This document shows positions 2,146 through 36,800 of a stretch of DNA of 41,282 bases, one piece after another. This DNA is from Sedimenticola sp. (lineage in GTDB: Bacteria; Pseudomonadota; Gammaproteobacteria; Chromatiales; Chromatiaceae). The position numbers and the translations under genes were made by a program. The notes under the pieces are model-generated. The model did not search any database. It saw only the letters and a program-made list of their open reading frames with translations, and was not told where the DNA came from. Numbering within the stretch: the first letter of the stretch is position 1; every line of letters begins with the position of its first letter. The stretch is from the NCBI GenBank assembly GCA_027008705.1, contig JALVEB010000039.1, positions 1 to 41,282 on the forward strand, in the 5' to 3' direction.

Positions 2146-2172
2146 CGTTCAGGCCTCCTGACGGGTAAGCGG

Positions 2173-3292
<1,120 letters not shown>

Positions 3293-3348
3293 TCGCCGCA
3301 TTATCATCTCCCACCGAAACCGCTCGAATCCTTTCGTGCATCGGCTCC

Positions 3349-3377
3349 GTAGGATGGGTTGAGGTACGAAACCCATC
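3349..3377. repeat. short palindromic dispersed repeat, copy 2
   Basis: GTAGGATGGGTTGAGGTACG then AAACCCATC form an inverted repeat with GATGGGTT/AACCCATC arms. It lies between the 3' end of vapC and the 3' end of the cas operon, matching the placement of copy 1 (543-570) between another convergent pair. No T-rich tail follows, so a terminator role is only an inference. Confidence 0.7.
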
Positions 3378-3415
3378 GCAAGACCGGGATTCTGGGTAAT
3401 CTGCCGATTTTCAGC

Positions 3416-5722: not shown

Positions 5723-6198
5723 TCCTCGCTGTCGGCGTTGATTTCGATGGCGGTGAGCAGGGCCAGATGTTGGATGACGCCGCGTTCGGTAGTATCGCGC
5801 CAATAGCGGCGATAGACGAGAAAACCGTTGGCGCCGTGGAGCCGGTGGCGGACTTCGTCGTAAAGCTCGCTTCCCTGCTCGTCGTGGCTGTGGGTGGTGA
5901 GTATCCAGCCCTGGCCTGCGCCGTGGCGCAGGGTAAGGCTGTGCCCCTGGCCGGTGACGGCTTCCGCCGTGAGCAGGCAGCCCCAATCGGGCGCGGGCGT
6001 GGGCAGGCCATCCGTGAAGTATTGCTGGTGGGACTGAAACTGGAGCCAGCCTTGTCGGGGTTGGGCGTTTTCAAACTCGGCCCAGACTTCGTCGGGCTCG
6101 GTGAGCGTCAGCGTGCTTTCCAGTTTTGGCGCGCCTTGCCACATCTGCGGCAATTTCGCGCTTTCGCGGAACTGTTGGTAAGCGTCGAGCAGTTCCAT
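5719..6198 (-). CDS. csx19: Csx19 family CRISPR-associated protein
   Basis: This 159-residue protein starts MELLDAYQQF and contains GWLQFQSHQQYFTDGLPTPA and a YDEVRHRLHGANGFLVYRRY segment, which fit the small Csx19 (TIGR03984) family found only with type III-D systems. It begins with a one-base overlap with the upstream gene (TGATG) and ends in a four-base ATGA overlap with the downstream RAMP gene. In III-D complexes Csx19 is a structural subunit near the head of the particle. No catalytic motif is seen. Assignment rests on length, position and local sequence character rather than a strict motif. Confidence 0.75.
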   Translation of the reverse strand: MELLDAYQQFRESAKLPQMWQGAPKLESTLTLTEPDEVWAEFENAQPRQGWLQFQSHQQYFTDGLPTPAPDWGCLLTAEAVTGQGHSLTLRHGAGQGWILTTHSHDEQGSELYDEVRHRLHGANGFLVYRRYWRDTTERGVIQHLALLTAIEINADSEE

Positions 6199-7652
6199 CA
6201 GGCGGCCTCCTCGTTGGATTCAGAGTTGTCGGTCTTGATCAGCCAGTCGGCCAGTGGGCCGTTCAGTTGGCCTGTGAAAAAGCCGTTGCCGGTGCTGGTT
6301 TTGGAGCCGATGGCGAGACGGCCCTGGCAGAGGTCGTCGAGCGCGTCTTTCAGCGCCTGGCGGACTTCGGGGCCGGCGCTTTCGAGGACGCTTTTTTTCA
6401 GGACGATTGGGATCGTCAGTTGCCCGCCGAGCAGGCTTTCTTCGTCGAACAGCATGCGGTTGCGGATGCCGCCGGTGAAGCGGTCGATGGCGTTGTGCAT
6501 GAGGTGGATGACTTGCTCGGGCTCGACCGAAATGCTGATGTCATCGAGGATGAGCGCGCCGGCGCGTCCCGTTTTATTGCCTTCCTTGCTGTCCTTGATC
6601 CAGCCGAGCAGTGAGTGGAGAGCCTCGGGGCGTTCGTCGTCGAGCGTGGCGTCTTCGCTGTTCCACAGGCCGGCGTGACGACGGTAGTGGAAGGCGATGC
6701 GATGGGACAGCGCGCCCTTGATCGACGAGGCGGGGACGAGAGGCATTTTCAGTTGTCGCTGGCCCTTGCCATCTTCCCATATGATGCACTCTTCGGTTTT
6801 CGGCAACAGATCGGCGGGTTTGTCGCCGTTGTCGCCGCGCAGGCTTTCGGTTCCCTGCCCGATGCGCCAGGGGCCTTTGGCCTCGAGGACGAGTTCGCCG
6901 TTGATCCAGTCGCTGCCGCTGGGCGGTTCGATGTCCTTTTGTTGCAGCATTTTCGTATCGGAGAGCCCGCGCCCAAGCTGAACGTAGTGTCTGCGCTGCT
7001 CGGGGTTCTTGAGGTCGAAGCAGCCCTGATGCAGTTCGATGAGCCGCATTTTACCGAGGCCGGCGCGGGTATGGCCGCCAAGGCGGAAAGCGGGGTGCCG
7101 CAGCAGGCTGAGCAAGGCATCCCATTCGGCCTGGCCGGATTCGGGTGAGTCGGCCCAGAGTTTGAGTTCAGCGGCGAAGCGATGGCCGGCGGGGAGGATG
7201 GCGCGGTCGAATTTGGCCTTGTCGGCGGCCGCGCCGCGATGCGTCAGGCGGACGCGATCGCGGTACACGGGGGTGTCCTGCTGGTCCAGCACTGCCTTGT
7301 AGAGTTCGTCTTCGAGACGTTGCGGGTCGGTGATGAGTCCTTCGGCCGGTTGGCCCTGGCTGTCGAGCAGCGCGCCCCAGGAGACCAAAAGCCGGGAAGC
7401 TTCGCCGTCCTTGCTTTTTTGGTAACCGAAAAGGTCGTCGGCGGCGCTTTCGTCATCGCCATGGGTTTCGATCCAGAGGTGACGCAGGACGCCCGCGAGA
7501 CTGGAGCCGGGCAACGCGGGCAGGCCGTTGGCGTCCCGCACCAGGGCCGTGTCGAAGACGCCGTCGGGATTGCCCGTGCTGATGGAGAGTGTGGTGGCGG
7601 CCTCGAGCGTGAAACGGGCGATGAAGAGGGTGCTGCACTCTAGACGGTTCAT
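6198..7652 (-). CDS. double Cas7 (Csm3-like tandem RAMP) subunit of type III-D complex
   Basis: This 484-residue protein has two Csm3-like RAMP domains. Domain 1 (about 1-265) has GVFDTALVRDANGLPALPGS with the aspartate that in Csm3 cuts target RNA, then SLAGVLRHLW and the glycine loop LGGHTRAGLGKMRL. Domain 2 (about 270-470) has PLVPASSIKGALSHRI, the Csm3-typical HNAIDRFTGGIRNRMLFDEE, and GRLAIGSKTSTGNGFF. No aspartate is obvious at the matching position of domain 2, so perhaps only one of its two sites cuts. GGAGGA stands just upstream of ATG 7652. The gap to csx10 is two bases, and the downstream junction is TGATG. By analogy with the Cas7-2x subunit of type III-Dv complexes it should span two crRNA segments. 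Confidence 0.85.
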   Translation of the reverse strand: MNRLECSTLFIARFTLEAATTLSISTGNPDGVFDTALVRDANGLPALPGSSLAGVLRHLWIETHGDDESAADDLFGYQKSKDGEASRLLVSWGALLDSQGQPAEGLITDPQRLEDELYKAVLDQQDTPVYRDRVRLTHRGAAADKAKFDRAILPAGHRFAAELKLWADSPESGQAEWDALLSLLRHPAFRLGGHTRAGLGKMRLIELHQGCFDLKNPEQRRHYVQLGRGLSDTKMLQQKDIEPPSGSDWINGELVLEAKGPWRIGQGTESLRGDNGDKPADLLPKTEECIIWEDGKGQRQLKMPLVPASSIKGALSHRIAFHYRRHAGLWNSEDATLDDERPEALHSLLGWIKDSKEGNKTGRAGALILDDISISVEPEQVIHLMHNAIDRFTGGIRNRMLFDEESLLGGQLTIPIVLKKSVLESAGPEVRQALKDALDDLCQGRLAIGSKTSTGNGFFTGQLNGPLADWLIKTDNSESNEEAA

Positions 7653-7654
7653 GG

Positions 7655-9199
7655 TCAGACTCCTCCAGTTTGGATGGCGTCGGTGATCCGATCTGCGAAC
7701 ATGCGGATAAACAGGGCGTAGGCGCGGTTTTTGTGCGCGTCTGGAATGTCGTTCGTGATCGTGTCGAAGGTAAGTTTTGCCTTGAGCCATTCGGCCAGTT
7801 TTTGTGGTGGCTGGCCGGCTTTCTTCGCGGGAATTTCGATATTCCAGCCTTCGCCTTTCGGTTTGATGCGGGCCTTGGCGCCTTGAAAAAGATCTTCGAA
7901 GATTTTCCGGCCGGTCTGGTTGCGGGCGACGCTGCCGACCCCGGCCCATTGCGAGCGCGAGGGGCCGTAAGTGAGGTCGCCGGTGATGCCGTTGAAGCGG
8001 CGGGAGGCGCTGATGGCGTTTCGATACTTGTCGAGGTGTTCGCGCACCAATTTTTCGACGATTTCCCGCCAGCCGATATCGGCGCGACTTTCGAGCCACT
8101 GGATCAGCGGATCGTTGGCGGGCTTTTCCACTTCGCCATCCGCCCTGGAGAGTGGGGCCGGTTCGTCGAACCGGGGTCGGAGCGTCGCCAACAGCGCCGG
8201 GTTGACCCAGACCCGGCCCAACCCGGCTTCGCGATGCAGGCCGGCGCCGTTTTCGTGCAGACGTTGAGGGGCGTCGGTATCATCGGATTTTCCGCTGAGC
8301 GCGATGACGCTGCCCGCCTGCACGACCAGCCGTTCGCTGTCGTAGCCCTGGCGGGCGCTGTTCCACGGAGAGTAGCGGCGGGTGCGCAGAAACGTCCGCG
8401 ACCAGTCGATCTGGCAACCTCCGAGGCCGAAGTCTTCTGGTGCTGGCTCGGTCTTCGGGTTGCCGAATGCATCGGCCAGCGCAAGGTCGGAGAGCAGCCA
8501 AAGGATCAGCTCGTCCTTATTGGCGTCGCCAGCCTGCACCGGATCGAGTTCGACCGCCGTGATTGCGCAGCGACCATATTCGGCGGAGCGGGAGCGGCCC
8601 AGCAGTTGTTCCCCGGTCAGCGCGTCGATGATCTCGTCGAACCGCGCTTGGTCGATGTCGTCATCGGCTTCGACGAAAGCGATGAACCGTTGCCCACGCA
8701 GCAGGGCGTCGTAGCCGAACAGTTGGGCCTTTTCGGCGCGACCGGTTTCGGGGGCGATGGCGGTCTTCAGTCGCAGTTCCCGCGCCGGGGTGGAGTAGCG
8801 TCCGTCGGCGTGGACGTAGCCGCCGCGCAGTTGCTTGATCTGCCGTTGTTGTTCGGCGCTGTCACGGAGCCGGTTGATGATCTTGTCCGCTCTCAGTCGG
8901 GTAACGCCCTGCTCGGTTTCCTGGTAGCCGGCGAGCTTTCTGTAATGCCAGCAGAGTGGCGTCGGCCAGCCGATGGCATGGCCATCCCAGGGAGTGGCGT
9001 CGGAAAACCGCAGTTTGCCGCTGTGAAAAAGAAGGTAGGCATCGCGCCGGTCGAATGCATCGTAGCGGCGGCTCGCGGCGGCGCCGAGCAGGGCGGCGCC
9101 GGGAATGCGGTCGAGCGATTTGTGGCCGCCTTCGGTGGCGGCGCTGGCGCTGAAGACGCAATCCTCGATCAGGTCGATACGCAGGGCCTGGCGTTTCAT
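7655..9199 (-). CDS. csx10: Csx10, Cas5-like RAMP with helical C-terminal extension
   Basis: This 514-residue protein fits the type III-D Csx10 family, the Cas5-like subunit that caps the crRNA 5' handle. The N-terminus reads ALRIDLIEDCVFSASAATEG with GGHKSLDRIPGAALLGA, followed by GEQLLGRSRSAEYGRCAI (conserved G-x-S-R-S-x-x-Y-G) and GAGLHREAGLGRVWVNP (glycine-rich loop). The last ~150 residues (from DPLIQWLESRADIGW) are mainly helical and look like a fused small-subunit (Cas11-like) domain. This fits the absence of any separate csm2-like gene in the operon. It overlaps the Csm3-like gene by four bases (ATGA). The Cas11 assignment of the tail is inference. Confidence 0.85.
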   Translation of the reverse strand: MKRQALRIDLIEDCVFSASAATEGGHKSLDRIPGAALLGAAASRRYDAFDRRDAYLLFHSGKLRFSDATPWDGHAIGWPTPLCWHYRKLAGYQETEQGVTRLRADKIINRLRDSAEQQRQIKQLRGGYVHADGRYSTPARELRLKTAIAPETGRAEKAQLFGYDALLRGQRFIAFVEADDDIDQARFDEIIDALTGEQLLGRSRSAEYGRCAITAVELDPVQAGDANKDELILWLLSDLALADAFGNPKTEPAPEDFGLGGCQIDWSRTFLRTRRYSPWNSARQGYDSERLVVQAGSVIALSGKSDDTDAPQRLHENGAGLHREAGLGRVWVNPALLATLRPRFDEPAPLSRADGEVEKPANDPLIQWLESRADIGWREIVEKLVREHLDKYRNAISASRRFNGITGDLTYGPSRSQWAGVGSVARNQTGRKIFEDLFQGAKARIKPKGEGWNIEIPAKKAGQPPQKLAEWLKAKLTFDTITNDIPDAHKNRAYALFIRMFADRITDAIQTGGV

Positions 9200-9783
9200 G
9201 GCTGTACCTCCAGAGTGATTTCGGCGCGCCCGAGGCCGCGACTACGGTGGGCGCCAACGGCGTCGATCAGGGGCAGGATTTCGCGGATGCGCTCGTCCCA
9301 ATCGTCGGGCGGGGTTTGTCCGGGCACGGGGTCGATACCGGCTTGAAGCATCACGGGGATGGTGACTTCGATGCCGCGCAGGCTGTGGTCGAGAGCGCTG
9401 AGGCTGCGGTATTCGACGGCGGTGTGGTACAAACCGGCATAGAAGGCGGGCGTCAGTGTTCGTCCCTCTCCACTGGCCAGCCAGCGCCGCTGTGGCTCCG
9501 GCAGCTGGGCATCGGAGATACGCAGGCACCCGCGTTGGGAGAGATCACCACCTGCCGGATTACGGCTGCCGAACAGGGTTTTGGCCAAACCCGTGAAGCC
9601 CTCCCAGCCCCAGGCTTCGGCGCGGGCAGCGGCATCGCGCAGCAGCCCCTTGAGATGTCGCCCCGGCAGCAGCGGCAGGCCATCGGGGTCGCGTTGCACC
9701 ACGAAATCATAGACGCTGCCCCCATCGCGGCCGCCACCGGCGTGCCAGTATCCCCTGAGATCGATGGTCAGTTGCGCTTTCAT
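9196..9783 (-). CDS. Csm3-like Cas7 RAMP subunit
   Basis: This 195-residue single-RAMP protein belongs to the Csm3/Cmr4 group. GGSVYDFVVQRDPDGLPLLP carries the likely target-RNA-cleaving aspartate, followed by GRHLKGLLRDAAARAEAWGW. The C-terminus has DAVGAHRSRGLGRAEITLEV, the glycine-rich RNA-binding loop. It overlaps cas10 upstream and csx10 downstream by ATGA, so expression of the three is coupled. It should form one backbone unit next to the Csx10/Cas10 foot. The order Csm3-like then Csx10 with helical tail matches, in unfused form, the Cas7-5-11 fusion known in type III-Dv. Confidence 0.85.
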   Translation of the reverse strand: MKAQLTIDLRGYWHAGGGRDGGSVYDFVVQRDPDGLPLLPGRHLKGLLRDAAARAEAWGWEGFTGLAKTLFGSRNPAGGDLSQRGCLRISDAQLPEPQRRWLASGEGRTLTPAFYAGLYHTAVEYRSLSALDHSLRGIEVTIPVMLQAGIDPVPGQTPPDDWDERIREILPLIDAVGAHRSRGLGRAEITLEVQP

Positions 9784-11402
9784 GCGGCTTGTCCTCTTTG
9801 CATGTTGTCGCCGGATTGGGCGCGCGTCAGGCTGAGCAAGGCCAGCGCATCGCCCAGTGGGCTGCGGCAGATGCCGTTGCCGCTGTTGTCGTAGGGCAGC
9901 AGTGCGTTTTTGGAAATACTGGAGAGCGCGTTCATCAGTTCGTCATATTTTTTCAGGCGTGGTGTTTTGTCCTTGTCGTCCGCCATCAGTCGCCGCCAGC
10001 GGCGGTAGCGTCGTTCGGCCTGAGCCTTGTCGTGGCCCATCAGCGTCATCAACTGGCGTGTCGGGCCGCGCGCCATGTCGTCGGCGCCGAGCGTTCTGGC
10101 CAGTTCGAGCAGGTCGTCGAGGCAGGGCTGTTGCTCTTTGAAGTAGTATACGCCGAGGGTGTCGATGAAGGTTTCGTCGCCGAAGCGGTGCGAGAGAACG
10201 CGTGCGACAATCTGCTCGTAATCGTCCACCAGTGAGCCAGTGATACGGTGGAAGGCGATGGAGGATTCGGGATCGTCCTGGTTCAGCGCCTTGGCCACTT
10301 TTTTCGCTTCGCCGAGCAGATCCTCGGCCAGGTGTATGGCCATGTGGAAGGGCTGGGAGGCGCGCAGGAAAACGAGGCCGAAACCCAGAGTGAGACGCTT
10401 CGGCAGGCCCTCGACGCTATGATCTTCACCAAGTTTTTTGAGTTCCTCGCGACTGGCGCTTTCAAAGGCCTCGGCGAACACCTTGCAGTATTCCATGGCG
10501 AGATCGGCGCGTACGATGACGGTGATGTCGTCCCCACCGAGCAGGATGGGACGGGCTGCCAGGCATTGGCTTCGCTCTTTCTCGCGCACGGGCAGCAGAA
10601 CCTTTTCGGTGGCCTGTTGCGCGGCGCTTTGCGTGGTGGCGGCAACAGCATTGGAAAAAGCGCGGAAAAGTTCGACGAAGCGATTGTCGTCTTCTTTGGC
10701 GGCATCGCGAATGTGCATCAACAACTGCCCCAGGCCATTACCGTCGGCGTGGATCAGCGCCACTGTGCGGTCATCCCCGGCAAAGGGAAAAGCGCCGGTA
10801 TCGCTTTTGCCTTCGAGATCCGTCGGCCAGTCCCGCCACTTCAAATCGGCGTCGGGCGGGGCGAAGCGCTTGAGAAAACCGGCTTTCGACAAATCCGCCA
10901 TCTGCTTCTTGCGGGCGGTGGGGGCATCCATCGGCCCGTCCTTGGCCCGCCATTTCGCATCGATGGCGGCCAGGCCGGTGCGCCGGGATCGGCTGGTCAG
11001 CGGGCTGGCCGGCGGCAGGTTCGGGCGCTTGCGATTGGCGTCGGCGTTCATGGCCCGGCGCGCGGCATCGAAGGCTTCCGCATGGGTGCAGCCTTCGCCC
11101 ATGCCCAGGCTGAAATCCATGCCCGGCGCCCACTGCTGCACCGCCAGGGTCCACAGTCGCAGAAACCGCATCAACTCGTCGCGGTCGTCGCAGAAGGCAT
11201 AAATCGCGCCGCCCGCGCGACGGGAAAATCGAATGGTCTTTCCGTCGCCCATCCCCAGGGCGTTCAGAACATTGTCGAGTAAATTCCCGTCGCCATCGGT
11301 CATCTGATCGAGCAATTCGCTGGCGCCCGCCACGTCGCGCAGCCGTCCGGACGCAAAGAGGTAGGGCTGGATGGAATTGAGTTCAAAAACGAGTGAGTGC
11401 AT
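9780..11402 (-). CDS. cas10: Cas10 (type III-D large subunit, no HD domain, GGDD intact)
   Basis: This 540-residue protein begins directly with the first palm domain (FELNSIQPYLFASGRLRDVA followed by GASELLDQM). The N-terminal HD nuclease of many Cas10 proteins is therefore missing. HADGNGLGQLL lies near residues 215-225. The cyclase motif RPILLGGDDITVIVRADL lies near 283-300 with GGDD intact, so cyclic oligoadenylate synthesis is expected, feeding the CARF-HEPN nuclease gene in this window. A helical C-terminal domain follows. ATG 11402 is preferred over 11408 because GGAGA ends directly at 11409, giving normal spacing only to 11402. The start lies inside the 3' end of the preceding small ORF. 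DNase activity is unlikely without HD. Confidence 0.9.
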   Translation of the reverse strand: MHSLVFELNSIQPYLFASGRLRDVAGASELLDQMTDGDGNLLDNVLNALGMGDGKTIRFSRRAGGAIYAFCDDRDELMRFLRLWTLAVQQWAPGMDFSLGMGEGCTHAEAFDAARRAMNADANRKRPNLPPASPLTSRSRRTGLAAIDAKWRAKDGPMDAPTARKKQMADLSKAGFLKRFAPPDADLKWRDWPTDLEGKSDTGAFPFAGDDRTVALIHADGNGLGQLLMHIRDAAKEDDNRFVELFRAFSNAVAATTQSAAQQATEKVLLPVREKERSQCLAARPILLGGDDITVIVRADLAMEYCKVFAEAFESASREELKKLGEDHSVEGLPKRLTLGFGLVFLRASQPFHMAIHLAEDLLGEAKKVAKALNQDDPESSIAFHRITGSLVDDYEQIVARVLSHRFGDETFIDTLGVYYFKEQQPCLDDLLELARTLGADDMARGPTRQLMTLMGHDKAQAERRYRRWRRLMADDKDKTPRLKKYDELMNALSSISKNALLPYDNSGNGICRSPLGDALALLSLTRAQSGDNMQRGQAA

Positions 11403-11544
11403 TTCCATTCTCCGGTCGGTGGATGTATTGCGTGTAATACCCCGCGAGGGCGAGGTGGCAGCTCGCATCAGTGGGGCCGTCGTTGAGGCTGTGGCGTTCT
11501 TGATCTGATTGCGCTTGAGCGGCGTTTTCACTTTTTCTATTCAT
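11383..11544 (-). CDS. small ORF between regA and cas10, unknown
   Basis: This is a possible 53-residue protein (MNRKSENAAQAQSDQERHSL..., ending ENGNALTRF). An AAAGG ribosome-binding site lies about 8 bases before the ATG and overlaps the regA stop codon; the gap to regA is only 11 bases. The 3' end overlaps the cas10 start by 20 bases. No family is recognised. The N-terminal half is polar and probably disordered; a SCHLALAGYYTQYIH stretch might fold. It may be a real protein linking the two modules, or only a leader that couples cas10 translation to regA. Confidence 0.4.
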   Translation of the reverse strand: MNRKSENAAQAQSDQERHSLNDGPTDASCHLALAGYYTQYIHRPENGNALTRF

Positions 11545-17767: not shown

Positions 17768-18565
17768 TCAGCCCCGCCGGGCGCGGCGCATGCCCACCAG
17801 GCCGATCGCCAGCAGCGACAGCGTGGCCGGCACCGGTACCGCTGAAGGCACGTCGCCCGCGGTGCCGAAGCCGCCCGGCGATTCGGTCTCCGCCCAGGTA
17901 TAACGCGGTGCTTGATCCGAGGTCAGGAAGACCACGCTCGATGCGTTACCCGGCTGGATGCGGTTGTTGGCGTTCCAGCTGAACAGCATGGCTTCGGCCG
18001 CGAGCGTTCCGTTCTGCACCGCCGGGCTGGAGATCACGTTTCTTTCCAGGCTGTCGGCGTTGACCAGGCCGCTGCCGGCGATCAGGTTACCGACGCTGGT
18101 CAGCAAGGAAGGGCTGTGATCGTTGGGTACATCCAATGGTGTTACCGCGCCACTCAGAGCGCTGAAGGTGGTGGTGTCAAGATAGCCTCCGCTGGTCGGG
18201 GGCGAGATCCAGGTGATGTTGAAGTTCTCCAACTCCTGCTCCGGCGGGGCCAGCGGATCGGTGTTGTTGACCTGATAGAGATAGACATAGCGGGCAGCGG
18301 TATCGACACCCGTCGAGAAAGGCGCGAGCGCCACGGCGGTGCCGGCATTGGCGAAGAAACTGTCATTCAGCCAGTTGCCGCTTTCGTTCTCCCATACCGC
18401 GAAACTGACGGTGGAATCGCACAGCGGACAGGTCGCGCCGCCTGGGGTGCCGTCGGTATCGCCGAATACGCTCATGCCGACAAAGCTGGTGAGCAGGGCG
18501 GCATGCGCTGGCGCGGAAAGCGCGGCGGCGAGGCTGGCGGCGAGCAGGGACTGCTTGAATTTCAT
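17768..18565 (-). CDS. PEP-CTERM sorted exported protein
   Basis: This 265-residue protein has a Sec signal peptide (FKQSLLAASLAAALSAPAHA) and a C-terminal PEP-CTERM-like sorting signal: VPVPATLSLLAIGLVGMRRA then RRG, i.e. a V-P-x-P-A-T box, a hydrophobic helix and a basic end. Such proteins are cut and transferred by an exosortase and are linked to exopolysaccharide or floc formation. The body (TCPLCDSTVSFAVWENESGN, YVYLYQVNN, FNITWISPP) matches a recurring type of PEP-CTERM protein of unknown function. AAGGAG precedes the ATG. A sigma-54-type promoter lies ~110 bases upstream. The exosortase gene itself is not in the window. Confidence 0.88.
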   Translation of the reverse strand: MKFKQSLLAASLAAALSAPAHAALLTSFVGMSVFGDTDGTPGGATCPLCDSTVSFAVWENESGNWLNDSFFANAGTAVALAPFSTGVDTAARYVYLYQVNNTDPLAPPEQELENFNITWISPPTSGGYLDTTTFSALSGAVTPLDVPNDHSPSLLTSVGNLIAGSGLVNADSLERNVISSPAVQNGTLAAEAMLFSWNANNRIQPGNASSVVFLTSDQAPRYTWAETESPGGFGTAGDVPSAVPVPATLSLLAIGLVGMRRARRG

Positions 18566-20137: not shown

Positions 20138-20704
20138 TCAATCGCGGCGAGAGCCGGAGGCTTTCGGGGCGATCAACCAGGCGATCGGTCCGTGATTGGG
20201 GGTTTCGATCCGTCGCAGCGGGCGGGCGCGGCCTTGCAGGGCCTGGTCGATGACGCGGCATTCCGCCTCGCCGCCGGTGTGGCCACGGTAGCCGGTGATC
20301 GCGATGACACCGCGCGGCGGCAGGATTGCGCGCGCGGCGGCGATCGCGGCGAGTGTGGTATGGGGCCGGGTGGTCAGCGCATGGTCGCCGCCCGGGAGAT
20401 AGCCCAGGTTGAACAGCACCGCGCCAAGACGGGAATGCAGTGGACCGGGCAGGTGGTCGGCGAGGCACGCGTGGTCGGCGAGGATCAGGCGCGCGCGTTC
20501 CTCCATCCCGCGGGTGGCCAGGCGCGCGCGGGTGGCGTTCAGCGCCGCGCGCTGGATGTCGAAGGCGAACACCAGTCCGTCGGGACCGACCCGCTCGGCC
20601 AGAAAACAGGTGTCATGGCCGTTGCCGGCGGTCGCGTCGATCGCGATGTCGCCGGCTTGCAGATGGGCGCGCACGAAAGCGTGGACCTGTTCAACCAGAC
20701 GCAT
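20138..20704 (-). CDS. mnmM: MnmM (YtqB-family) tRNA wobble-uridine methyltransferase
   Basis: This 188-residue class I SAM methyltransferase carries the YtqB signatures: DATAGNGHDTCFLAERVG (SAM motif I), AVLFNLGYLPGGDHALTT (N-L-G-Y-L-P-G-G-D catalytic loop) and ITGYRGHTGGEAECRVI. The B. subtilis member methylates 5-aminomethyl-2-thiouridine at tRNA position 34. It overlaps the upstream FAD oxidoreductase gene by 14 bases and is the last gene of a three-gene operon. In that context it would take the place of the methyltransferase half of bifunctional MnmC. Substrate is inferred from family and neighbour. Confidence 0.85.
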   Translation of the reverse strand: MRLVEQVHAFVRAHLQAGDIAIDATAGNGHDTCFLAERVGPDGLVFAFDIQRAALNATRARLATRGMEERARLILADHACLADHLPGPLHSRLGAVLFNLGYLPGGDHALTTRPHTTLAAIAAARAILPPRGVIAITGYRGHTGGEAECRVIDQALQGRARPLRRIETPNHGPIAWLIAPKASGSRRD

Positions 20705-21746
20705 CGAGACGCTTCCGGTAGCGGGAGATATCGATCGCCGCGGGCAGCGGCTGGCCGGCGCACAGCCGGCGGGTCAGCGCCTCGACATGCAGCGGTGCGA
20801 ACAACGCGCCACGCGCGCCGAAGCCATTGCATACCCACAGCCGCGGCTGATACGGGTGGCAACCGAGGAAGGGCTGGCGGTCCGGGGTGCCGGGGCGGAT
20901 GCCGGCTCGCTGCGCCAGCACCTTGGGCGGTTGGCGGCCACACAGCCGTCGGTATTCCGCGAGCAGCCAGGCGCGCGCCGCGGGTTCGGGCCGGTCGTCG
21001 TCGAAGCACCACCGGTTGCTGGCGCCGAAACGCAGGCGGCCGTCGCCCAGGGGGATCGCCCAGCAGCCGCCGTTGACGATCGCGCGCGGCGCCGCTTCCG
21101 GCAAGGCCAGATCCAGGATCTCGCCCTTCGCGGGCTGAAGCGGGAGCCAGTCGAACCAGGGGTTATCACGCATCCGCCAGCCTTCGCAGAAGATTACCCG
21201 CCGCGCGCGCAGATCGCGCCAGCGCACCATATCGGCGCGTGCCTGGAACTCCCGAGCGTGCGTGAGTTCGCGGCGCAGGGCGTCATGGCGCGCAAGCCAG
21301 GCGCCGAGGGCGTCGAGCAGCGCGCCGGTGTCGAGCCAGCCGGTATGGCGCTGCACGAAGCCGCCGTGGGGCTGTGGGAGCCGGCTCGTGTCGAGGCGCG
21401 GCCCGGCATAGCGGCGTAGCGCGGGGTCGGCGCGCAGCTCGGCATGGCGCATCGCCTGGGCCGGGTCGTTGAACAGCCGCAGCATCGGCAGCGGATGGAA
21501 GAAGGGCTGCCCAAAATGCTGTTCGAGGCGCCGCCAAACGCGTTGTCCGGCGGCCCGCGCGGCTTCCAGACCGGCGGGTGGGCGCAGACGCCGGCCGGCC
21601 AGCGGATTCACCAGGCCCGCGGCGACGCGGCTGGCGTTTTCCCGCTCGCCGTCGTCGATCACCAGCACACGGTGGCCGGCCTCGATCAGCCGCCAAGCGA
21701 GCAGGCTGCCGATCAGGCCCTGGCCGACGATGATCTCATCGAGCAT
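20691..21746 (-). CDS. FAD-dependent oxidoreductase, stand-alone MnmC(o)-like
   Basis: This 351-residue DAO-fold protein has the FAD-binding N-terminus IIVGQGLIGSLLAWRLIEAG followed by HRVLVID, then ASRVAAGLVNPLAGRRL, and near the end GFGARGALFAPLHVEALTRR, which resembles the oxidase half of MnmC. It has no fused methyltransferase domain. With the overlapping mnmM gene it could convert 5-carboxymethylaminomethyl-uridine-34 to the aminomethyl form, which MnmM then methylates. Other DAO-family amino-acid oxidases (glycine oxidase, ThiO) are the main alternatives, so the function rests on context. It overlaps the upstream SpoU gene by 11 bases. Confidence 0.75.
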   Translation of the reverse strand: MLDEIIVGQGLIGSLLAWRLIEAGHRVLVIDDGERENASRVAAGLVNPLAGRRLRPPAGLEAARAAGQRVWRRLEQHFGQPFFHPLPMLRLFNDPAQAMRHAELRADPALRRYAGPRLDTSRLPQPHGGFVQRHTGWLDTGALLDALGAWLARHDALRRELTHAREFQARADMVRWRDLRARRVIFCEGWRMRDNPWFDWLPLQPAKGEILDLALPEAAPRAIVNGGCWAIPLGDGRLRFGASNRWCFDDDRPEPAARAWLLAEYRRLCGRQPPKVLAQRAGIRPGTPDRQPFLGCHPYQPRLWVCNGFGARGALFAPLHVEALTRRLCAGQPLPAAIDISRYRKRLDASG

Positions 21747-22284
21747 GCTGGCGGACGTATTCGTACATCACGATCGACGCGGCGATACTGACATTGAGGC
21801 TTTCGATGCGACCGAACTGCGGGATCGAAAGCCGCCCCACGTCGGGAAACGCGCGCGGATCGAAACTCAACCCCATCTCCTCGTGGCCGACGACGAAGGC
21901 GCTGCGCACCGGCAGCCGGGACCCGGGCAGCGGGGTGTCGGCGCCGGCGGCGAGCGCGAACAGGCTGTAGCCGCGCGAGATGAGTTCGTCGTGGCATGGG
22001 CTGAAGTCCTCGTGGAAGCGCGCGGGCACGCTTTTGAACGCGCCCTTGGCCGGATTGACGTCGAACGGGCCGATGCCGATCAGGTGGACCTCGGCCGCGC
22101 CGAAGACCTCGGCGCTGCGGAAGATCTTCGGTACGTTGAAGCCGGCTTTCAGGTGGTCCAGCACGACGATGAATTCATGCGCCCCCGGTTTCGCCAGAAG
22201 ATTGCGCTGGCGGTGTTTCTCGTAACGGCGCAGGGCCTGTTGGCGCTTGTCGCGGCGCGCCTTGCGCGTGGCTCGGTCGATCAT
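21736..22284 (-). CDS. SpoU/TrmH-family RNA 2'-O-methyltransferase
   Basis: This 182-residue SPOUT protein has a ~25-residue basic N-terminus (RATRKARRDKRQQALRRYEK). The SpoU motifs follow: motif 1 NVPKIFRSAEVFGAAEVHLI, motif 2 AFVVGHEEMGLSFD, and motif 3 LSIPQFGRIESLNVSIAASI (knot and SAM pocket), ending IVMYEYVRQ. The family methylates ribose 2'-OH in tRNA or rRNA. The exact target is not readable, though its operon with two likely wobble-uridine genes points to tRNA. Start 22284 is chosen from the conserved length; the frame upstream is not coding. It is divergent from dxs with 112 bases between. Confidence 0.85.
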   Translation of the reverse strand: MIDRATRKARRDKRQQALRRYEKHRQRNLLAKPGAHEFIVVLDHLKAGFNVPKIFRSAEVFGAAEVHLIGIGPFDVNPAKGAFKSVPARFHEDFSPCHDELISRGYSLFALAAGADTPLPGSRLPVRSAFVVGHEEMGLSFDPRAFPDVGRLSIPQFGRIESLNVSIAASIVMYEYVRQHAR

Positions 22285-22396
22285 GGGAACAGCGTAGCAG
22301 CCCGGCGGGAAGGGGATATTTGCGGTATACTCGATCAATCGTCCCGGGCACAAGCAGCCTGGAAGTGGATTCCTGACGAGCGGGTTTCATCGCGTC

Positions 22397-26067: not shown

Positions 26068-29000
26068 ATGCTAAATAATGTGTTAGGGGTATTCGGGGTG
26101 AATCACGCAGTCGTCGGGAAGTCGAATCTATCCGTGCGCCAAGTGGTGGGGCTTGTTTTTCTAGTGCTGCTGTTGGCTGGTTCGTGGACGTCTTCATTGT
26201 TTGCCGCAGTGGACAGCAGTGGTTTGTTGGATCTTGGTCAGAACGTTGCTGTCGAATACACTCGCTTCCGCACTAATCGTCGTACCGGTAAAACGGTTGC
26301 TACCGCGACGGTCACCAATCTTTCTGATCAGAGTTATTCCGGTCCAATCTATCTCGTCATTAATGGGATTACTCCCAATACGGTAACAATTGAGGGAGAA
26401 GATGACCGGACGATTTTGGGAGAACCTGTCTTTATCAAAGATGTTGCCGAGTTGGCGCCGGGAGCCTCCGTTGAGTATTCCATAACGTTTGTCGCTGGTG
26501 CTCGCTTGCCCCGTTTGTCGATAAACGAGGCGGTATTCGCCACAGATGCCGCTGGTGGAGGAGGAAACGGAGGAGGCTCTGTTCCCTTGGCGGTAAGTTT
26601 TTCTTCTCCGCCTGATGGGCTGCTGACCCAAGCCGATCACATTTTGGTGGAAGGCCAAGTGGAATTGTCTTCGGCAACGGTTGTCGTCAACGGCCGTATC
26701 GCCAGTGTCGACAGCAATGGCGTTTTCCAGGTCGAGGTACCCTTGCGCGAAGGTGTCAATACATTGATCGCAACGGCCGAGGCAGGTGGAAGAATCGGTA
26801 CCGGTAGCGTTCAGGTGATTCGTGATACCGATCCACCGATGGTCGTCGTCGAAACGCCCCGTGAAGGGGCTGTATTGACCGGATTGCAGGTCGATGTGGC
26901 AGGCCTCGTAAATGATATTGTCACGGGCACCACGATCAACGCTGATGATTGCGAGGTAACGGTCAATGGCGTGGCCGCTCAAGTGTCCAATCGAAGCTGG
27001 GTGGTCCCCGATCTTCTGCTGCAACGTGGACTGAATACGCTCACCATTGTCGCAACGGATCGCGCGGGCAACAGCCGCGTGGTTTCCCGCCAGGTTCGGG
27101 TTGCGGATCAGGTTGGCCAGCGGATCGTTTTGTTGGCGGGTAATAATCAGGTTGCCGCCATGGGTTCTTCTCTCCCCGAGCCTCTGGCTGTGGGTCTGTT
27201 GGATGCGGATGGAAACCCCGTACCAGACAAGGCGGTGACATTCCGTGTCAGCAGGGGCGACGGCATCTTGGGTGTCCCGCCAGAACAGGATACGAAGCTC
27301 GTTGTCCGGACGGATGACAATGGCATTGCCAGTACGTTTTTTACTATTGGAGAGCGTATCGGATCGGGCAATCATCGTGTGATTGCTTCCGCGCCGGGCT
27401 TCGTAGGCGAGGTCGAGTTCTGCGCGCTTGCGATTGCGGGTGTTCCACGGCGCATCACCACGGTATCCGGGGACGGCCAGACAGGCATCGCCGAAGAGAC
27501 CTTGCCTAAACCCTTTGTGGTGCTGGTAACCGATGCGGGAGGCAACCCCGTTGGCGGTGTCGATGTGACTTTCGAGGTGAAGAACGGCCTTGGAAGCTTT
27601 GGTGGCGCGCCCTCGGTGGTATCCACGACCGACAGTGATGGGTTGGCCAGCGCGACCATGACCCTTGGTCCTCAATCGGGCATCAACAACAATATTGCGG
27701 AGGCGAGTTTCGCCGGCCTTATGGAATCTCCGGCTTCCTTCAGAGCTTCTGGCCGCGCAGTGGGCAGGCCTGCCGATACCACGATCAGTGGGATCGTGCT
27801 GGATAATCAGGACAACCCGATTCCAGGTGCGACTGTCCATGTAGAATCCCTCTCCGGCAGCCCGGGCGCGCCGGCGGGTACGGCGGTTACTGATGATCAG
27901 GGGCGTTTTTCGATATCCAACGCGCCGGTTGGCACCGTTCATTTGGTCGTCGATGCATCCACCACGACACGAACGGGTCATTGGCTGGCTGTCGGGTTTG
28001 AAATGACAACGATTGCCGGTCAGGATAATACGCTGGGACACCCGATCTGGCTGCTTCCCGTGGCCGAGAATGAGGTCGTTGTCCAAAGTGGCGGGCCGGA
28101 ACAAGAAATTACGCTGTCGATTCCTAATGTGCCCGGCTCGAAGATAGTCATTGCGCCGCACTCGGTCACCTGTCCGAACGGACAGAGTCAATGTACGATA
28201 AGCTGGACCCAGGTACGCGGAGAACGCGTACCCATGCCGCCGCCTCAGGGGTCGTCGTTCATGCTTGCCGCGACCTTGCAACCCACTAATACGCGTTTCG
28301 ACCCGCCCGTAGCATTGTGTATTCCCAACAGCTCCATGCTGCCGGGTTCCCAGGCCGATATGTATTCTTTCGACCATGATTTGGGTGAGTTCGTTGCGAT
28401 TGGGACAGCCACTGTGACGGATGATGGATCTCAGCTCTGTTCCGATCCGGGATTCGGGATCGTCAAGGCGGGTTGGCATGGATGCGCGCCGCCACCGCCG
28501 CCAAACAAGTGCAAGCGCAATTGTCCGACACTGAATCCGGATGAGTGTCAGGAAGTTCAAAGCGCTGAATGTCCTGCGTGCCCAACTCTAGTATCGAAGC
28601 CGCCGGATACGGTGAAGTCCGAGCAGTCATCGCCTTCTGACTGCGTAACAGATACTTGCGGCGGAACAATTCCAAAGGATGAAACAGTAGAGTTACAAAA
28701 GGAAAATCCGTGCAAATTATGTGATGGCGGCAGCATTGCCGATGTTCCAAATGATCTAGAGAAACACTGTGGTGATGGTTCATCCAAACAGGCATGCCTG
28801 ATCTGCAAGGATGGGCTTTGCACCCGTCCTGATTGCCCGGTAGATGCGAGCGATGATGTTTCAGTTCGTTTGTCCGAGGGGGTGGCTGGCGAGTGGGCAA
28901 GCAAAGCAAGATCGCTGTTGAATCGTATACCTGGCGTTAATATAAAAAAAGTTAGTCTCGAGGTTAGAGCCGACTTGATTCATGGGCAAAGATGTTGTAA

Positions 29001-29586
29001 GGATTGCGAATTGGCTGATCCGGTATCTGATTACATTCGCGGGCGTGGCAGTATAAATTCTGAACTGACAGTGCATATCGCGGGTCCTAGGCCAAAAAAT
29101 TTCGAAAAAACACTTGCCTATAAAGGATATGGAATTCGATTGCGAGGGCGAATTGATACTGTCGGTTGGAGTTTAGATTTTTCTCTCGTGGGTAACGGCG
29201 GATTGCAAGGTCAGGTCATGATTAAGTGTCCTGAGGAACAATGCGTGGCATTAGCGGTTACAGGAGGGGCGTCGTTGCGACCGAAATTTGGATTGGACGT
29301 GAAGGATTTCGGTGCTGATGTTGTTTGGCGAGGAGAAAACAAGCAGATATTCAGTCTCGATATTACCGCTACAGCCGGAGCCCGAGTAGCTAATACCAGT
29401 GTAAGGCTGCTTAAGGGTTTGCACGGAGATAACTGTCCGGAGGAATGTAGATATACGCTTGGTGCTATGACTGTAGATGCGAAGTTGAACGCAAAGCTAT
29501 CGATATTTGGGCACAAGTTAATTAATCCTCCGGCGTTTACTATTGTATTTGTGGTATGGAATGGGTTTTCCGGAACATGCTTATGA
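26068..29586 (+). CDS. large secreted Ig-repeat and Cys-rich protein
   Basis: This 1172-residue protein has a long signal peptide (VVGLVFLVLLLAGSWTSSLF then AAVDSS). Modules in order: an N-terminal beta domain (~55-165); a glucodextranase/Ig-like domain (~185-350, ending VATDRAGNSRVVSRQVRV); two Big_1 (invasin-type) domains (~355-570, ADGNPVPDKAVTFRVSRGDG and AGGNPVGGVDVTFEVKNGLG); and one carboxypeptidase-regulatory-like domain (~572-670, SGIVLDNQDNPIPGATVHVE). From about residue 800 comes a proline stretch and a zone with about 18 cysteines within ~185 residues (CKRNCPTL, ECPACPTL, PCKLCDGG), then a C-terminal beta domain with more cysteines. It is probably a surface or periplasmic adhesive protein; the disulfides would need the Dsb system. 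No sorting or membrane anchor is seen at the C-terminus. Its stop overlaps the next gene (ATGA). Confidence 0.85.
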   Translation: MLNNVLGVFGVNHAVVGKSNLSVRQVVGLVFLVLLLAGSWTSSLFAAVDSSGLLDLGQNVAVEYTRFRTNRRTGKTVATATVTNLSDQSYSGPIYLVINGITPNTVTIEGEDDRTILGEPVFIKDVAELAPGASVEYSITFVAGARLPRLSINEAVFATDAAGGGGNGGGSVPLAVSFSSPPDGLLTQADHILVEGQVELSSATVVVNGRIASVDSNGVFQVEVPLREGVNTLIATAEAGGRIGTGSVQVIRDTDPPMVVVETPREGAVLTGLQVDVAGLVNDIVTGTTINADDCEVTVNGVAAQVSNRSWVVPDLLLQRGLNTLTIVATDRAGNSRVVSRQVRVADQVGQRIVLLAGNNQVAAMGSSLPEPLAVGLLDADGNPVPDKAVTFRVSRGDGILGVPPEQDTKLVVRTDDNGIASTFFTIGERIGSGNHRVIASAPGFVGEVEFCALAIAGVPRRITTVSGDGQTGIAEETLPKPFVVLVTDAGGNPVGGVDVTFEVKNGLGSFGGAPSVVSTTDSDGLASATMTLGPQSGINNNIAEASFAGLMESPASFRASGRAVGRPADTTISGIVLDNQDNPIPGATVHVESLSGSPGAPAGTAVTDDQGRFSISNAPVGTVHLVVDASTTTRTGHWLAVGFEMTTIAGQDNTLGHPIWLLPVAENEVVVQSGGPEQEITLSIPNVPGSKIVIAPHSVTCPNGQSQCTISWTQVRGERVPMPPPQGSSFMLAATLQPTNTRFDPPVALCIPNSSMLPGSQADMYSFDHDLGEFVAIGTATVTDDGSQLCSDPGFGIVKAGWHGCAPPPPPNKCKRNCPTLNPDECQEVQSAECPACPTLVSKPPDTVKSEQSSPSDCVTDTCGGTIPKDETVELQKENPCKLCDGGSIADVPNDLEKHCGDGSSKQACLICKDGLCTRPDCPVDASDDVSVRLSEGVAGEWASKARSLLNRIPGVNIKKVSLEVRADLIHGQRCCKDCELADPVSDYIRGRGSINSELTVHIAGPRPKNFEKTLAYKGYGIRLRGRIDTVGWSLDFSLVGNGGLQGQVMIKCPEEQCVALAVTGGASLRPKFGLDVKDFGADVVWRGENKQIFSLDITATAGARVANTSVRLLKGLHGDNCPEECRYTLGAMTVDAKLNAKLSIFGHKLINPPAFTIVFVVWNGFSGTCL

Positions 29587-30890: not shown

Positions 30891-33800
30891 GTGGCTAGTT
30901 ATATGCGCATACACAAGATCGTTGCTGGGTTTGTTCTTTTTTTCTCACTGATGCCGTTGGCTAGGGCAGTTGCACTCGATGACAATTGTGTTGCAAGCAT
31001 TCTAAATCGTTCTGTTCAGGTCAATCCTGACGGGAGTTTCGGCATTTCGAATATTCCTGCTCAAGCCGGAAAATTTCGTGTGCGCATCACTTGCGAGCAG
31101 GATGGTTCGCTTGTAAGGGGGCAGTCCTCCTTGGTTGACCTGGACCAGGACTCGACCGTTGAACTCTCACAAGTATTATTAGGGGTGTTTAACCCTATAC
31201 CCGTGTCAATTGAGATTGAATCGCCTGTCAGTTCGTTAAATGGAAGCGATGCGTTTACCCTTCTTAGGGCATGGGCTACCTATCCTGATGGCAGCCGAGC
31301 GGATATTACTTTTTCCGAAGCTACAATCTGGTCTTCCAGTAACTCCAATATTGCGGAAGTCGTCGATGGGATGGTGACGGCGAAGGCACGTGGTCAAGCC
31401 ATCATACAGGCACGCAACGAAGGCGTCGTTGCTTCCATTGCCATTGACGTGTTGATTCCTGACGATGCCGATGGTGATGGTCTGAGCGACGATTACGAGC
31501 TGGCAAACGGCCTGGATCCGAATGACCCGACTGACGCAACCCTGGACAGCGATGGCGATGGCTTGAACAATCTCGATGAATCCCGAATCGGCACCAATCC
31601 GAACGAGGCCGATACCGATGGCGATGGTTTGAACGATGGTGAGGAGAGAACTCAGGGATCCGAACCTCTTAAGGCAGATAGTGACGGTGACGGCTTGGCG
31701 GATGGCGATGAGGTGCGTCTTGGTACGAACATCGCCAATCCGGATAGCGATGGTGATGGTATCGCCGATGGCATTGAGATTGTTTTCGGCCTTGATCCCA
31801 CCAGTCCGAACCCAACCACCGAGGTGGTTGGAAGTGTCGTTGATGCCCAGGGTGCCGTGGTAGCGGATGCGGCTATCACGGTGTTTAATCGGTTTACCGT
31901 GAATTCTGGTCCTGATGGTCGTTTTTCCATTTCGAATGTACCCGTCGACCAGGGCGGTATCAGTGTTTTTGCACGACACGTCGTAGGCGCGTTGGTCGAG
32001 GACGGGGTTTCAGTTCCCGTGGCAGGGGTGTCCGGTGGGATTACGGACGTGGGGCGAATAACGCTTACACCAGTGATCGGGCGGGTAACCGGTAGAGTAT
32101 TGAGTCCTCGCGGCTTGCCGGTCAGTGGCGCGCGCGTGACAGTGACCAGTGGTGCGGACAGCCGGGGTGTGAATACCGATGTAACCGGCGCCTATACCGT
32201 GGATAATCTGCCGCCTGGTCAGATAGTCGTGACCGCTGTCGATATTGGCAGCGGTTTACGAGGGCGCGCGGTTGGTAACCTGCCCGAACAGGGTTCCAGC
32301 GTAGTTGATGTGGCGCTGACGGCCTCCGGCGCCGTGGCGGGCACCGTCGTTGATACCGATGGGTCTGCTGTTGGCAGGGATATCCTGGTCGATCTCTCAG
32401 GCCCAGCGGCTCGCACGACGAGTACTGATTCGCTGAGCGATTATCTTTTTGATTATATCCCTTTGGGCGTTTACACCGTCGACGCGGCAGATGGTGCGGG
32501 TAATCGAGGCAGAACCACTGTTGCCTTGACCGGAACAAATCAGTCCATCGATGCTGATATCACCTTTCTTGGACGTGGCGCGGTGCGTGGAGTCGTCGAG
32601 GATCCGTCTGGAAATCTCGTTTCGAATTTGCAGGTGCGGATATCCAGCGATAGCTTGTTCGGTGGAGTGGAAGAGACGGTTACGGACTCCCAAGGTGAAT
32701 TTTTCGTGGATGGATTGTTCGTCGGGGATTTCCAGGTTTTTGTACATGATCCGGTTACCGGTTTGGCCGGTAGTGCTCGTGGGACTGTTCCTGCTCAAGG
32801 CACCACGACCGATGTGGTGATTACGTTGCAGCCGTCGGGCAGTCTCTCTGGGCGTGCTTTTGAGCATGATGGAGTCACTCCCGCTGCCGGCGTGGAAGTG
32901 AAGGTGCTTCCGTCGGGCAGGATGGTTGCCACCGATGCCAATGGGGAATTTCGCTTCGCGTTTCTTCCGATCGGTGACTACGTCCTAACGGCAAGGAAAG
33001 TGGCGCCCGGAACAAATGAGTCTATTGCCATTGATCAACAACGCGCCACTGTAACAGTGGAATCCGGGATGGAGGTGACGCGTGATCTGGTCTTGAATGG
33101 TATGGGAAGTGTCAGTGTAACCGTTTACGATGCCGGTGGTGATGTCGTACCCAATGCGCAGGTGGTATTGTCTGGTGAAACGCAGTTTGGTGGTTCCGCG
33201 CAACGTATGACCGGGGCCGATGGCACTGCCTTGTTTCCCATGGTGCTTGCGGGGGAATTCAATGTTTCAGCGATGGATCCGGTCGACGTGCTTGGGGGAG
33301 CGGTGCGTTCCAGCTTACTGGCGGACGAGGTTACTCATGTCGATGTTGTCTTGGAGGCCGCTGGCGCAATACACGGCAGGGCGCTGCGTGCGGATGGGCA
33401 TACTCCTGCGGCTGGAGTTCGTGTAAGGCTTTGGCCGTTGGGCCGCCAGGTTGTAACCGGTAGTGACGGTAGTTTCCGGTTCGATATGATTCCTGTAGGG
33501 CGGAGTCCGTACCGGGTTGAGATAACCGATGCGGTTGGCGCGCTGCGCGCGGTAGCGGATGGATTGGTGCTCAGTCGGCATCGTGAGGTTTTGGAACGGG
33601 ATGTCGTACTTTCGGGTTTGGGCAGCGTGACCGGTGTTGTGACGAGCCCTGATGGCACGATTGCTCCAGGGGTTGGCGTAACACTGGTCAGTTCGGTTCC
33701 CGGAATGCGAAACCTTTTTGTAACCAGTAATGTCGATGGACGCTATCGTTTCGATAATATCCCAGAAGGCGCTTTTTCACTCTCTGCAAGCGTGCCGGCA

Positions 33801-36800
33801 CTGCGCTACGGTGCAACTATCGGCGGTGCGATAACACAGGATGGTGAAACGGTTCCCCTGGATATTCAACTGCTCGAAGATCAAGTTCCGGTAAACACTT
33901 CAACATTGGCTCGGTATTATGATGCCAATGGAATGGATTACGGTGTGCAGCGTACCGGTGAATTGCGCGATGGAAATACCGCTGTATTCCGTGGTGACAA
34001 TGGCGTCCATCGTGGGGCGGCTCGCCTCGACGTGCTCTTGAACAACGTTGCCAGGCCCTTCGTCAATAGCGGTACACCGCTGTTCGGAGCAAGGGAAGTC
34101 GAAATACCTGGCAGTGTTGGATTGGCGGGCCTGACGGTCCGGCGTAAGGTTTATGCTCCGGAAGATGGATATTTCGTTCGTTATCTGGAGGTGTTTACGA
34201 ATAGCGGCGATACACCGATCACGGTTGATGTGCGACTCGACAGCCATTATCGCTACATCCAGCAGATTCGAAATGGTTTCCGCTTCAATGAGCCCCCTAG
34301 AATCGTCAGTACGTCGGACGGGGACGCAGTCCCGTTTCCGGGTGATCACTGGGTGGTGGTCGATGATAATACGGATATAGATCCCTTCCTCAGCACGAAC
34401 CTGCCTTCGATTGCGCATGTTCTCAGCGGGGAAGGCGATATCGACGATGTCGATGATTTGACCTTTGAAACCGATGGGAACAGCTACGGTCGTTTGCGCA
34501 CGATTTGGCGGAATCTGACTTTAGATCCCGGTGAAACCCGCATATTGATGCATTTCGTTGTGCAGCAGCTGACACGCGAAGCGGCGATCGCTTCTGCCTC
34601 TCGTTTGGAACAGCTGCCTCCCGAGGCGATTGCCAATTTGAGCGATGGCGAACGCGCGGAGATCGTGAACTTCGTCTTGCCTGCTGATGGTATCAGTAGT
34701 CTGCCCCGACTACCGGCCTTGAACGGGAAGCTTTCGGGGACGGTGTTCGAAAGTGACGGTCAGACTGTGGTGAGTGGCGCCAGCGTGCGTTTTCGCTCGG
34801 ATGAAGTGTTATACGGTCGCACCCATGTTGTGCGTGGAGATAGCCAGGGTGGCTATGAATTGTCGAGTCGTTTCGGCAACAATGGCGCAAACAGGGCAGT
34901 TCCCATCAGTGGTTTCAGCCTTCAGGCCACCCATCCCGTGAGCGGAATTGCTTCTACGCCGGTAAACGATGATTTCGGTGGTGCGTCGGATCTCAATGTC
35001 GATATCCTGTTTGGAGAGACCGGCATGATTGGTGGTACCGTCCGCCGTGCCGATGGAACCGTTGTAAGCCAGGGTTCCGTTACCATTCGCGGCGGAGGCC
35101 TGCTTGGGGATCGTAGTGTGGGTATTGGTATCGATGGCGCTTTCGTAATTGGGGGGCTTCCGGAGGGAACTTATTTCATTGAAGCCGTGCTGCCTATTGC
35201 CCAAGGAAGTAGCCTGAGCGGCAATGCGTCGGTGAGTGTCGTCGCTGGTCAACAGACCGACGTAAACATCACATTGGCGCCCACGGGTGGGGTGGAAGGC
35301 GTATTGCGCGATGGCGCCGGTTTTCCTGTTATCGGCCGGCGTGTACTGCTCACCGCCGAAAGGTTTCAACGCGCGGCGCAAACCGACACTGGTGGAACAT
35401 TTCGTTTTCTGGATGTGCCGGAAGGTGATTATCAACTCGTTGTCACGGAGCCGCGGACTGGTGTCGCTACGAATGTGGCGGTTACCGTTGTCGCCAATCA
35501 AATTCTGACGCAGGATATGGCTTACACCGCGTTGGGTTCGGTGGACGTGCAAGCCACCTTTGCGGATGGTTCGGTCGCGTCAAACGCGAGAGTGCTCGCG
35601 CGCAGACTTGTGGTTGGCGATTTTTTTGCATCGGTTGGCACCACCGATGAACAGGGGCGGTTGCTGATTTCCAACGTCCCCGCGGGTGCTTTTACTGTAA
35701 AGGTATTCAGTCCGGTTAACGGGGCTTTGTCGGGAGAATTCAGTGGATTGGTTACTCACCATGGTCAGGTGATCGTTGCGCCGATCGTTTTGCCGATCGA
35801 TCTTCCTCCTTCAGTGAATTTGCAGTCTCCCAGCCAGAATGATCGCTTCATAGAAGGGACTCAAATCCAGCTGTTGGCGGCTGCTGATGACGATATTGGC
35901 GTATCTGGCGTCGAGTTCTTCATTGATGGTCAACGGGTTGGGGTAGATTACAGCGCACCGTTCGCTATAAATGTAGTGCTCACTCGTCCTGATTCAGGCA
36001 ATGCGCGCGAACTGACTGCCGCTGCGATTGATAGCGCTGGTCAGCGAGTCTTTAGTGATCCGCTCGTCATTCAGGTTGTGGCAGATGAAGTCGCTCCCGA
36101 AATTGAATTGACCGAGCCCGTTGGTGGCGATTTTGTCGAAGGAACAGTGGTTACTTTACGGGCTTCGGCCAACGATAATATCGCTGTGGATCGCGTTGAG
36201 TTCAGCGCGGATGGCAACGTGTTTTCGGTAGATAACTCGAGCCCTTATGTTGCCTCTTTGTCTTTGCCCCGCGATTTTGCCAGTGCCGGGGAGACGCCGA
36301 TGAGAATCGTCGCTACAGCATTCGATCGTTCTGGTAACACCGCAAGTGATTTCCGGAATATCAACGTACTGCCGGATACCCCTCCTCGGTTGAGTCTGCT
36401 TCAGGCGCCAGTCAGCGGTTCCGATGTGTTGGAAGGCACTCGGCAGCAGTTCCGCGTTGAGGCTCTAGATGACGTAGGAGTCAACCGTGTAGAGTTGCTG
36501 CTCGGTGACAGTGTTCAGAGTACACGCTTCAGCCCGCCCTATAGCTTCCAATTGATCGTTCCGCGCCTTGCTGCGACGGTAAATCCGATTGAGGTGACGC
36601 TCAGGGCGTATGATACTCAGGGACAGTTTTCTCAACTGCCGCCTCTGGAGCTGAATGTTGTCGCGGATCTTCCTCCCAGCGTGGCCATTACAGGAGTTTC
36701 CGATGGGGCTGATGTCGTCGAGGGGATGCTATTGAATCTAACGGCGGATGCCACGGACGATATCGGTATTACCCAAGTCGAGTTCTTCGTCGACGGCGTA

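Follow-up and report, generated by a model that had tools for sequence, protein, structure and literature searches.

Does the FAD-dependent oxidase gene that overlaps mnmM in a Sedimenticola sp. genome form, together with mnmM, a replacement for the bifunctional MnmC in tRNA wobble-uridine modification? Cho et al. (2023) left the MnmC(o)-like partner in MnmM organisms open and found no operon containing both (PMC9976899). A sequence-only reading of the locus had proposed a split MnmC(o) acting with MnmM, joined by a SpoU enzyme in a complete wobble-uridine module. We analysed the whole stretch of 41,282 nucleotides, hereafter the window, which is contig C39 of a draft genome (2.9 Mb, 99% complete, 244 contigs).

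Gene content of the locus and the U34 enzymes of its genome

The locus is transcribed from the minus strand in the order SpoU, FAD oxidase, MnmM, with overlaps of 11 nt (SpoU/FAD) and 14 nt (FAD/MnmM). Each of the three Pfam matches exceeds its cut-off:

20138-20704, minus strand, mnmM, SAM-dependent methyltransferase, predicted to convert nm5(s2)U34 to mnm5(s2)U34 (Pfam rRNA_methylase/MnmM, 115.5 bits)
20691-21746, minus strand, FAD-dependent oxidase gene of an unnamed clade, predicted cmnm5(s2)U34 oxidase (Pfam DAO, 135.2 bits)
21736-22353, minus strand, SpoU/TrmH-class 2'-O-methyltransferase gene (Pfam SpoU_methylase, 76.5 bits)
58 nt downstream of mnmM, same (minus) strand, DAHP synthase gene (AroG family)
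22397, divergent from the SpoU gene, dxs

The SpoU gene may start at an ATG at 22284, where the sequence-only reading had placed the right-hand end of the locus, or at a TTG at 22353, giving a longer product. The oxidase has 351 amino acids and the MnmM 188. Coordinates, overlaps and Pfam families bear out the earlier description of three overlapping genes, including an FAD enzyme that has no methyltransferase domain. A promoter and terminator scan gave no signal above chance, and no RNA family or tRNA was found in the window. The gene dxs is found no more than a few kilobases from mnmM both here and in many Bacillota loci (L087, L106, L113, L120, L140, L145, L147, L150 and L158), a proximity that may be coincidence.

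Elsewhere, the window holds a probable type III CRISPR-Cas gene set with interspersed, unassigned open reading frames (877-11531, minus strand), which includes:

877-2145, minus strand, Csm6/Cas02710 HEPN protein
3416-5986, minus strand, RAMP-domain protein
9780-11531, minus strand, Cas10/Cmr2 palm-domain protein

A 265-aa secreted protein that matches no Pfam family (17768-18565, minus strand) ends in VPVPATLSLLAIGLVGMRRARRG, which resembles a PEP-CTERM sorting signal. On the plus strand, 30891-38825 encodes a protein of 2644 aa. It combines seven carboxypeptidase-regulatory-like domains with bacterial Ig domains, TSP3 repeats and a von Willebrand A domain; a further, weak match is nidogen-like, and the whole is suggestive of a large protein of the surface or matrix. 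Just upstream lies a gene for a 1172-aa Ig-like protein (26068-29586).

The identity of the methyltransferase was assessed against the curated model NF053511, which it matches at 167.9 bits (cut-off 135). By this model it is a true MnmM, as the sequence-only reading had it (a YtqB/MnmM-type enzyme), and methylation of nm5s2U is predicted. Its closest solved structures are those of YtqB/MnmM (4pon, 8h0s and 3eey). In crystal structures of the Bacillus subtilis enzyme, bsMnmM, residues D34, N101, Y104, Y141 and H144 hold U33/U34, and their mutation abolishes activity (PMC9976899). The counterparts in the window protein are D31, N99, Y102, Y139 and H142, which are 91-100% conserved among 93 relatives. 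The position of bsMnmM K110 is occupied by H, and the alignment at K11 is uncertain.

All absences given for this genome rest on HMM searches. These found no match to the MnmC methyltransferase domain (PF05430, Methyltransf_30) and no full-length MnmC elsewhere in the genome, so the fused enzyme that the sequence-only reading expected to be missing is indeed absent; nor did they find a match to the MnmL/YtqA model above its cut-off. MnmG is present (900 bits), and the PF06962 gene in the window is the only one in the genome. With MnmC(m) and MnmL absent and MnmM present, MnmM is therefore the sole known enzyme of the last two steps in this genome. As the MnmL model finds nothing above cut-off, MnmL is excluded as the partner of MnmM here.

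The FAD-dependent oxidase and its relatives

No other full-length DAO-family protein of this kind is encoded in the genome. The FAD protein scores below the curated cut-offs of both families that it resembles: 91.7 bits against ThiO (TIGR02352; cut-off 250.8) and 79.1 bits against MnmC(o) (TIGR03197; cut-off 174.2). For comparison, a true ThiO relative (L072) reaches 294 bits and a true MnmC(o) (L070, with MnmC_Cterm) 276 bits. Both models were matched by all 17 sequences tried. In phylogenetic trees, 40-41 relatives grouped into a single clade (support 100/98 to 100/99) distinct from ThiO and MnmC(o), with ThiO separated from it at bootstrap values of 95-99. The clade joined MnmC(o) at 96/93 in one tree and was not resolved with a wider, more distant outgroup; a grouping with ThiO was not rejected (AU p 0.27), and the placement between ThiO and MnmC(o) kinship in rooted trees varied with the outgroup. 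Within the clade, G254, a genome of the same family, and Chromatiaceae bacterium CTD079 have almost identical oxidases, about 0.1 apart in the tree, so the organism studied here is probably a gammaproteobacterium close to that group. On these comparisons, the oxidase is a clade of its own and not a demonstrated half of a split MnmC.

The FAD-domain residues S304, G518, R567, G578 and G619 of MnmC are kept in the clade (S304 as T in 2 of 41 sequences), and the equivalent of E. coli MnmC R567, R284 in the oxidase, is invariant. ThiO keeps the same five residues, and most residues common to the oxidase and MnmC(o) are common to ThiO too; among those that the oxidase retains from both families are the FAD and carboxylate-site residues. 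The MnmC C-terminal tail with Arg653 is missing from the oxidase. An AlphaFold2 model (pLDDT 91) has the fold of glycine oxidase, CmiS2 and MnmC; its structural matches are these three and iminodiacetate oxidase (IdaA), at Z 33-36, and the ranking (glycine oxidase Z 36 versus MnmC Z 34) does not separate the families. The best structural relatives act on glycine or on N-carboxymethyl amines and other N-substituted glycines. CmiS2 takes off an N-carboxymethyl group in the form of glyoxylate (PMC11284099), and this is the chemistry that cmnm5U requires. Protein charge was uninformative as a sign of tRNA binding (pI 10.8 for the window oxidase; clade median 7.0).

These likenesses raise an alternative reading, in which the FAD protein is, perhaps additionally, a divergent ThiO glycine oxidase that makes dehydroglycine for the thiamine thiazole, with its position next to mnmM either incidental or a sign of dual use. 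ThiO is its best-scoring NCBIfam model and glycine oxidases are its top structural matches, while dxs, which makes a thiazole precursor, divergently adjoins the operon. In addition, HMM searches of the genome found ThiG and ThiS, no separate ThiO and no ThiH above cut-off, so a thiamine role, dual or alternative, is conceivable in this organism. Nevertheless, we consider this reading unlikely. The oxidase resembles ThiO, CmiS2 and IdaA in fold, FAD site and probable chemistry on an N-substituted glycine, but it is far under the ThiO cut-off, lies outside the ThiO clade and carries NG[FL][GA][AS][RK]G in the active-site loop where ThiO has [HQ][FY]RNG. Its linkage is moreover to a tRNA methyltransferase, not to genes of thiamine synthesis or another pathway, and seven loci show its clade fused to MnmM. 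All six oxidase-bearing genomes tried, the two sampled from the same family included, have a separate ThiO with 47-55% identity to a typed ThiO, and in the present assembly of 244 contigs ThiO may simply be missing. The thiS-thiG genes lie on contig C193 (G000:C193, L173), away from the FAD gene between SpoU and mnmM.

Linkage and fusion of the oxidase with MnmM

We surveyed 274 genomes sampled across the class, counting oxidase relatives at E < 1e-40. The oxidase clade was found in 20 genomes and MnmM in 22, with both in 19 (Fisher p 3e-25, without correction for kinship), and 12 families are involved. In 18 of the 19 two-gene genomes, oxidase and mnmM are neighbours; in the other (G079), they lie on different contigs. 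None of the 22 genomes with MnmM has a strong MnmC(m) match, as against 62 of the remaining 252 (p 0.006). This agrees with the mutual exclusion of MnmM and MnmC(m) reported by Cho et al. (PMC9976899).

Among public genomes, the oxidase lies directly upstream of, or is fused to, mnmM in 12 of 13 planctomycetotal and 8 of 9 verrucomicrobiotal MnmM loci. It adjoins or is fused to none of the 47 Bacillota MnmM loci; in two of these, MnmL is the neighbour of mnmM. Seven planctomycete loci encode the fusion in one stop-free frame of 531-559 amino acids, oxidase first and MnmM second, and the second half exceeds the MnmM cut-off in the three fusions checked (3/3). Assembly errors are an unlikely cause, since the fused oxidases are spread over three distinct branches in the tree of the oxidases.

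An MnmL-family protein above cut-off is absent from most genomes that carry the pair. The few matches to the model in pair-bearing genomes (G001, G090, G186 and G236) are uninformative, because in Gammaproteobacteria the model presumably also catches YhcC of the E. coli type.

Exceptions run in both directions. MnmM occurs without the oxidase in G155, G266 and the fragmentary G270, and mnmM has no adjoining oxidase in five Ectothiorhodospira loci (L082, L083, L084, L086 and L097). Conversely, a complete genome of 3.4 Mb (G034) encodes the oxidase (G034:C1:275614-276654, L051) without MnmM or MnmC(m); there, either the methylation step has been lost or another enzyme performs it.

A further alternative is that MnmM alone acts on nm5U made by MnmEG with ammonium, and that the FAD enzyme uses some other N-substituted glycine or amine. 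Such synthesis of nm5U is known (PMC9976899), and in G155 and G266 MnmM occurs in the absence of both the oxidase and MnmL. Against this, the same oxidase is tightly linked to, co-occurs with and is fused to MnmM across three phyla, and we judge this alternative quite improbable.

The SpoU gene scores 20.5 bits against the TrmL model (cut-off 190.6) and is far under the curated cut-offs of TrmL, TrmH, RlmB and YfiF, while TrmL (200.7 bits, G000:C75), RlmB (251.6 bits) and TrmJ (232.4 bits) are encoded elsewhere in the genome; an assignment as TrmL was rejected on the low score and the presence of a proper TrmL on C75. Close relatives occur in 5 of the 274 genomes, three of which lack both the oxidase and MnmM. 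Its same-strand, 11-nt overlap with the FAD gene and a relative in matching order in Chromatiaceae bacterium CTD079 (L081; dxs-SpoU-(one gene)-FAD-MnmM) favour the proposal of a complete wobble-uridine module of all three genes, with SpoU as the 2'-O-methylase of position 34. The TrmL score, the proper TrmL elsewhere, the rarity of its close relatives, which do not track the pair, and the one genome among them with the oxidase (G034), where SpoU lies 150 kb from it, make this very unlikely. The SpoU gene is a lineage-level neighbour of the oxidase-mnmM pair, co-oriented but probably outside the module. In a verrucomicrobial metagenome-assembled genome (L127:1172-2366), an RlmB-like SpoU gene directly overlaps mnmM with no oxidase nearby.

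The predicted pathway and its place among known systems

Taken together, these observations make it likely that the FAD gene and mnmM constitute a two-enzyme replacement for bifunctional MnmC. In the proposed route, MnmEG would install cmnm5 on tRNA U34, and the FAD enzyme would attack cmnm5(s2)U34 in its glycine-like side chain, oxidising the C-alpha-N bond. Hydrolysis of the imine would yield nm5(s2)U34 and glyoxylate, and MnmM would then methylate the amine to give mnm5(s2)U34. The predicted final methylation rests on a well-characterised family, that of MnmM. The substrate and reaction of the oxidase are most likely those given, judging by its context, the fusions and the chemistry of its relatives, and the two enzymes most likely act sequentially on the same tRNAs. 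Counting against the proposal are the slightly higher score of the oxidase on ThiO (91.7) than on MnmC(o) (79.1), the genome with the oxidase and no MnmM, and the three with MnmM and no oxidase.

The sequence-only reading is thus retained in part. Replacement of MnmC by an oxidase and MnmM is favoured by the way in which the oxidase tracks MnmM through the 274 genomes and three phyla and by the seven fused loci, whereas the description of the oxidase as a split MnmC(o) gives way to a clade of its own, below the cut-offs of MnmC(o) and ThiO. Similarly, the wobble-uridine module is supported for the pair, by linkage and fusion, and not for SpoU as a member.

The pair would carry out the same two steps as MnmC (E. 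coli YfcK), FAD-dependent oxidation of cmnm5U34 followed by SAM-dependent methylation of nm5U34, and the oxidases share a fold (Z about 34) and, as with ThiO, conserved FAD and substrate residues. Unlike in MnmC, the genes here are separate, the methyltransferase belongs to PF06962, which is unrelated to the PF05430 domain of MnmC, and the oxidase comes from another clade (mean identity 19%) without the C-terminal Arg653 tail. The planctomycetotal fusions, with oxidase before methyltransferase, reverse the MnmC order. Stand-alone MnmC(o) with stand-alone MnmC(m) (for example in genome G258, L070) is likewise an unfused oxidase and methyltransferase, but there both are true MnmC domains and here neither is. 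In the MnmL-MnmM system of Bacillota (YtqA-YtqB), the last methylation is also made by MnmM; the preceding step is performed there by the radical-SAM enzyme MnmL and here, by prediction, by an FAD oxidase.

Arrangements already known include split MnmC domains and the MnmL-MnmM pair, MnmL having been named for Bacillota since the study of Cho et al. The abstract of the 2024 MnmL paper by Jaroch et al. (J Bacteriol) reportedly mentions fusion proteins as well as alternate arrangements, and our claim to novelty is lowered for this reason. The literature searched, a scope that excludes that paper, contained no description of an FAD-oxidase clade paired with or fused to MnmM.

The oxidase-MnmM pair is probably an independently assembled replacement for MnmC. 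With somewhat more reserve, we favour the broader view that Gammaproteobacteria, Planctomycetota and Verrucomicrobiota possess a third route to mnm5U34 that arose by independent assembly, made up of this FAD oxidase clade and MnmM, which in Planctomycetota would have become one bifunctional enzyme with the MnmC domain order reversed, a convergent MnmC. For several Gram-negative groups, the pair would answer the question left by Cho et al. in a concrete and testable way, and it gives a predicted function to proteins that reach the cut-off of no specific curated family model. The fusions, in turn, would provide an example of convergently fused genes among tRNA-modification systems.
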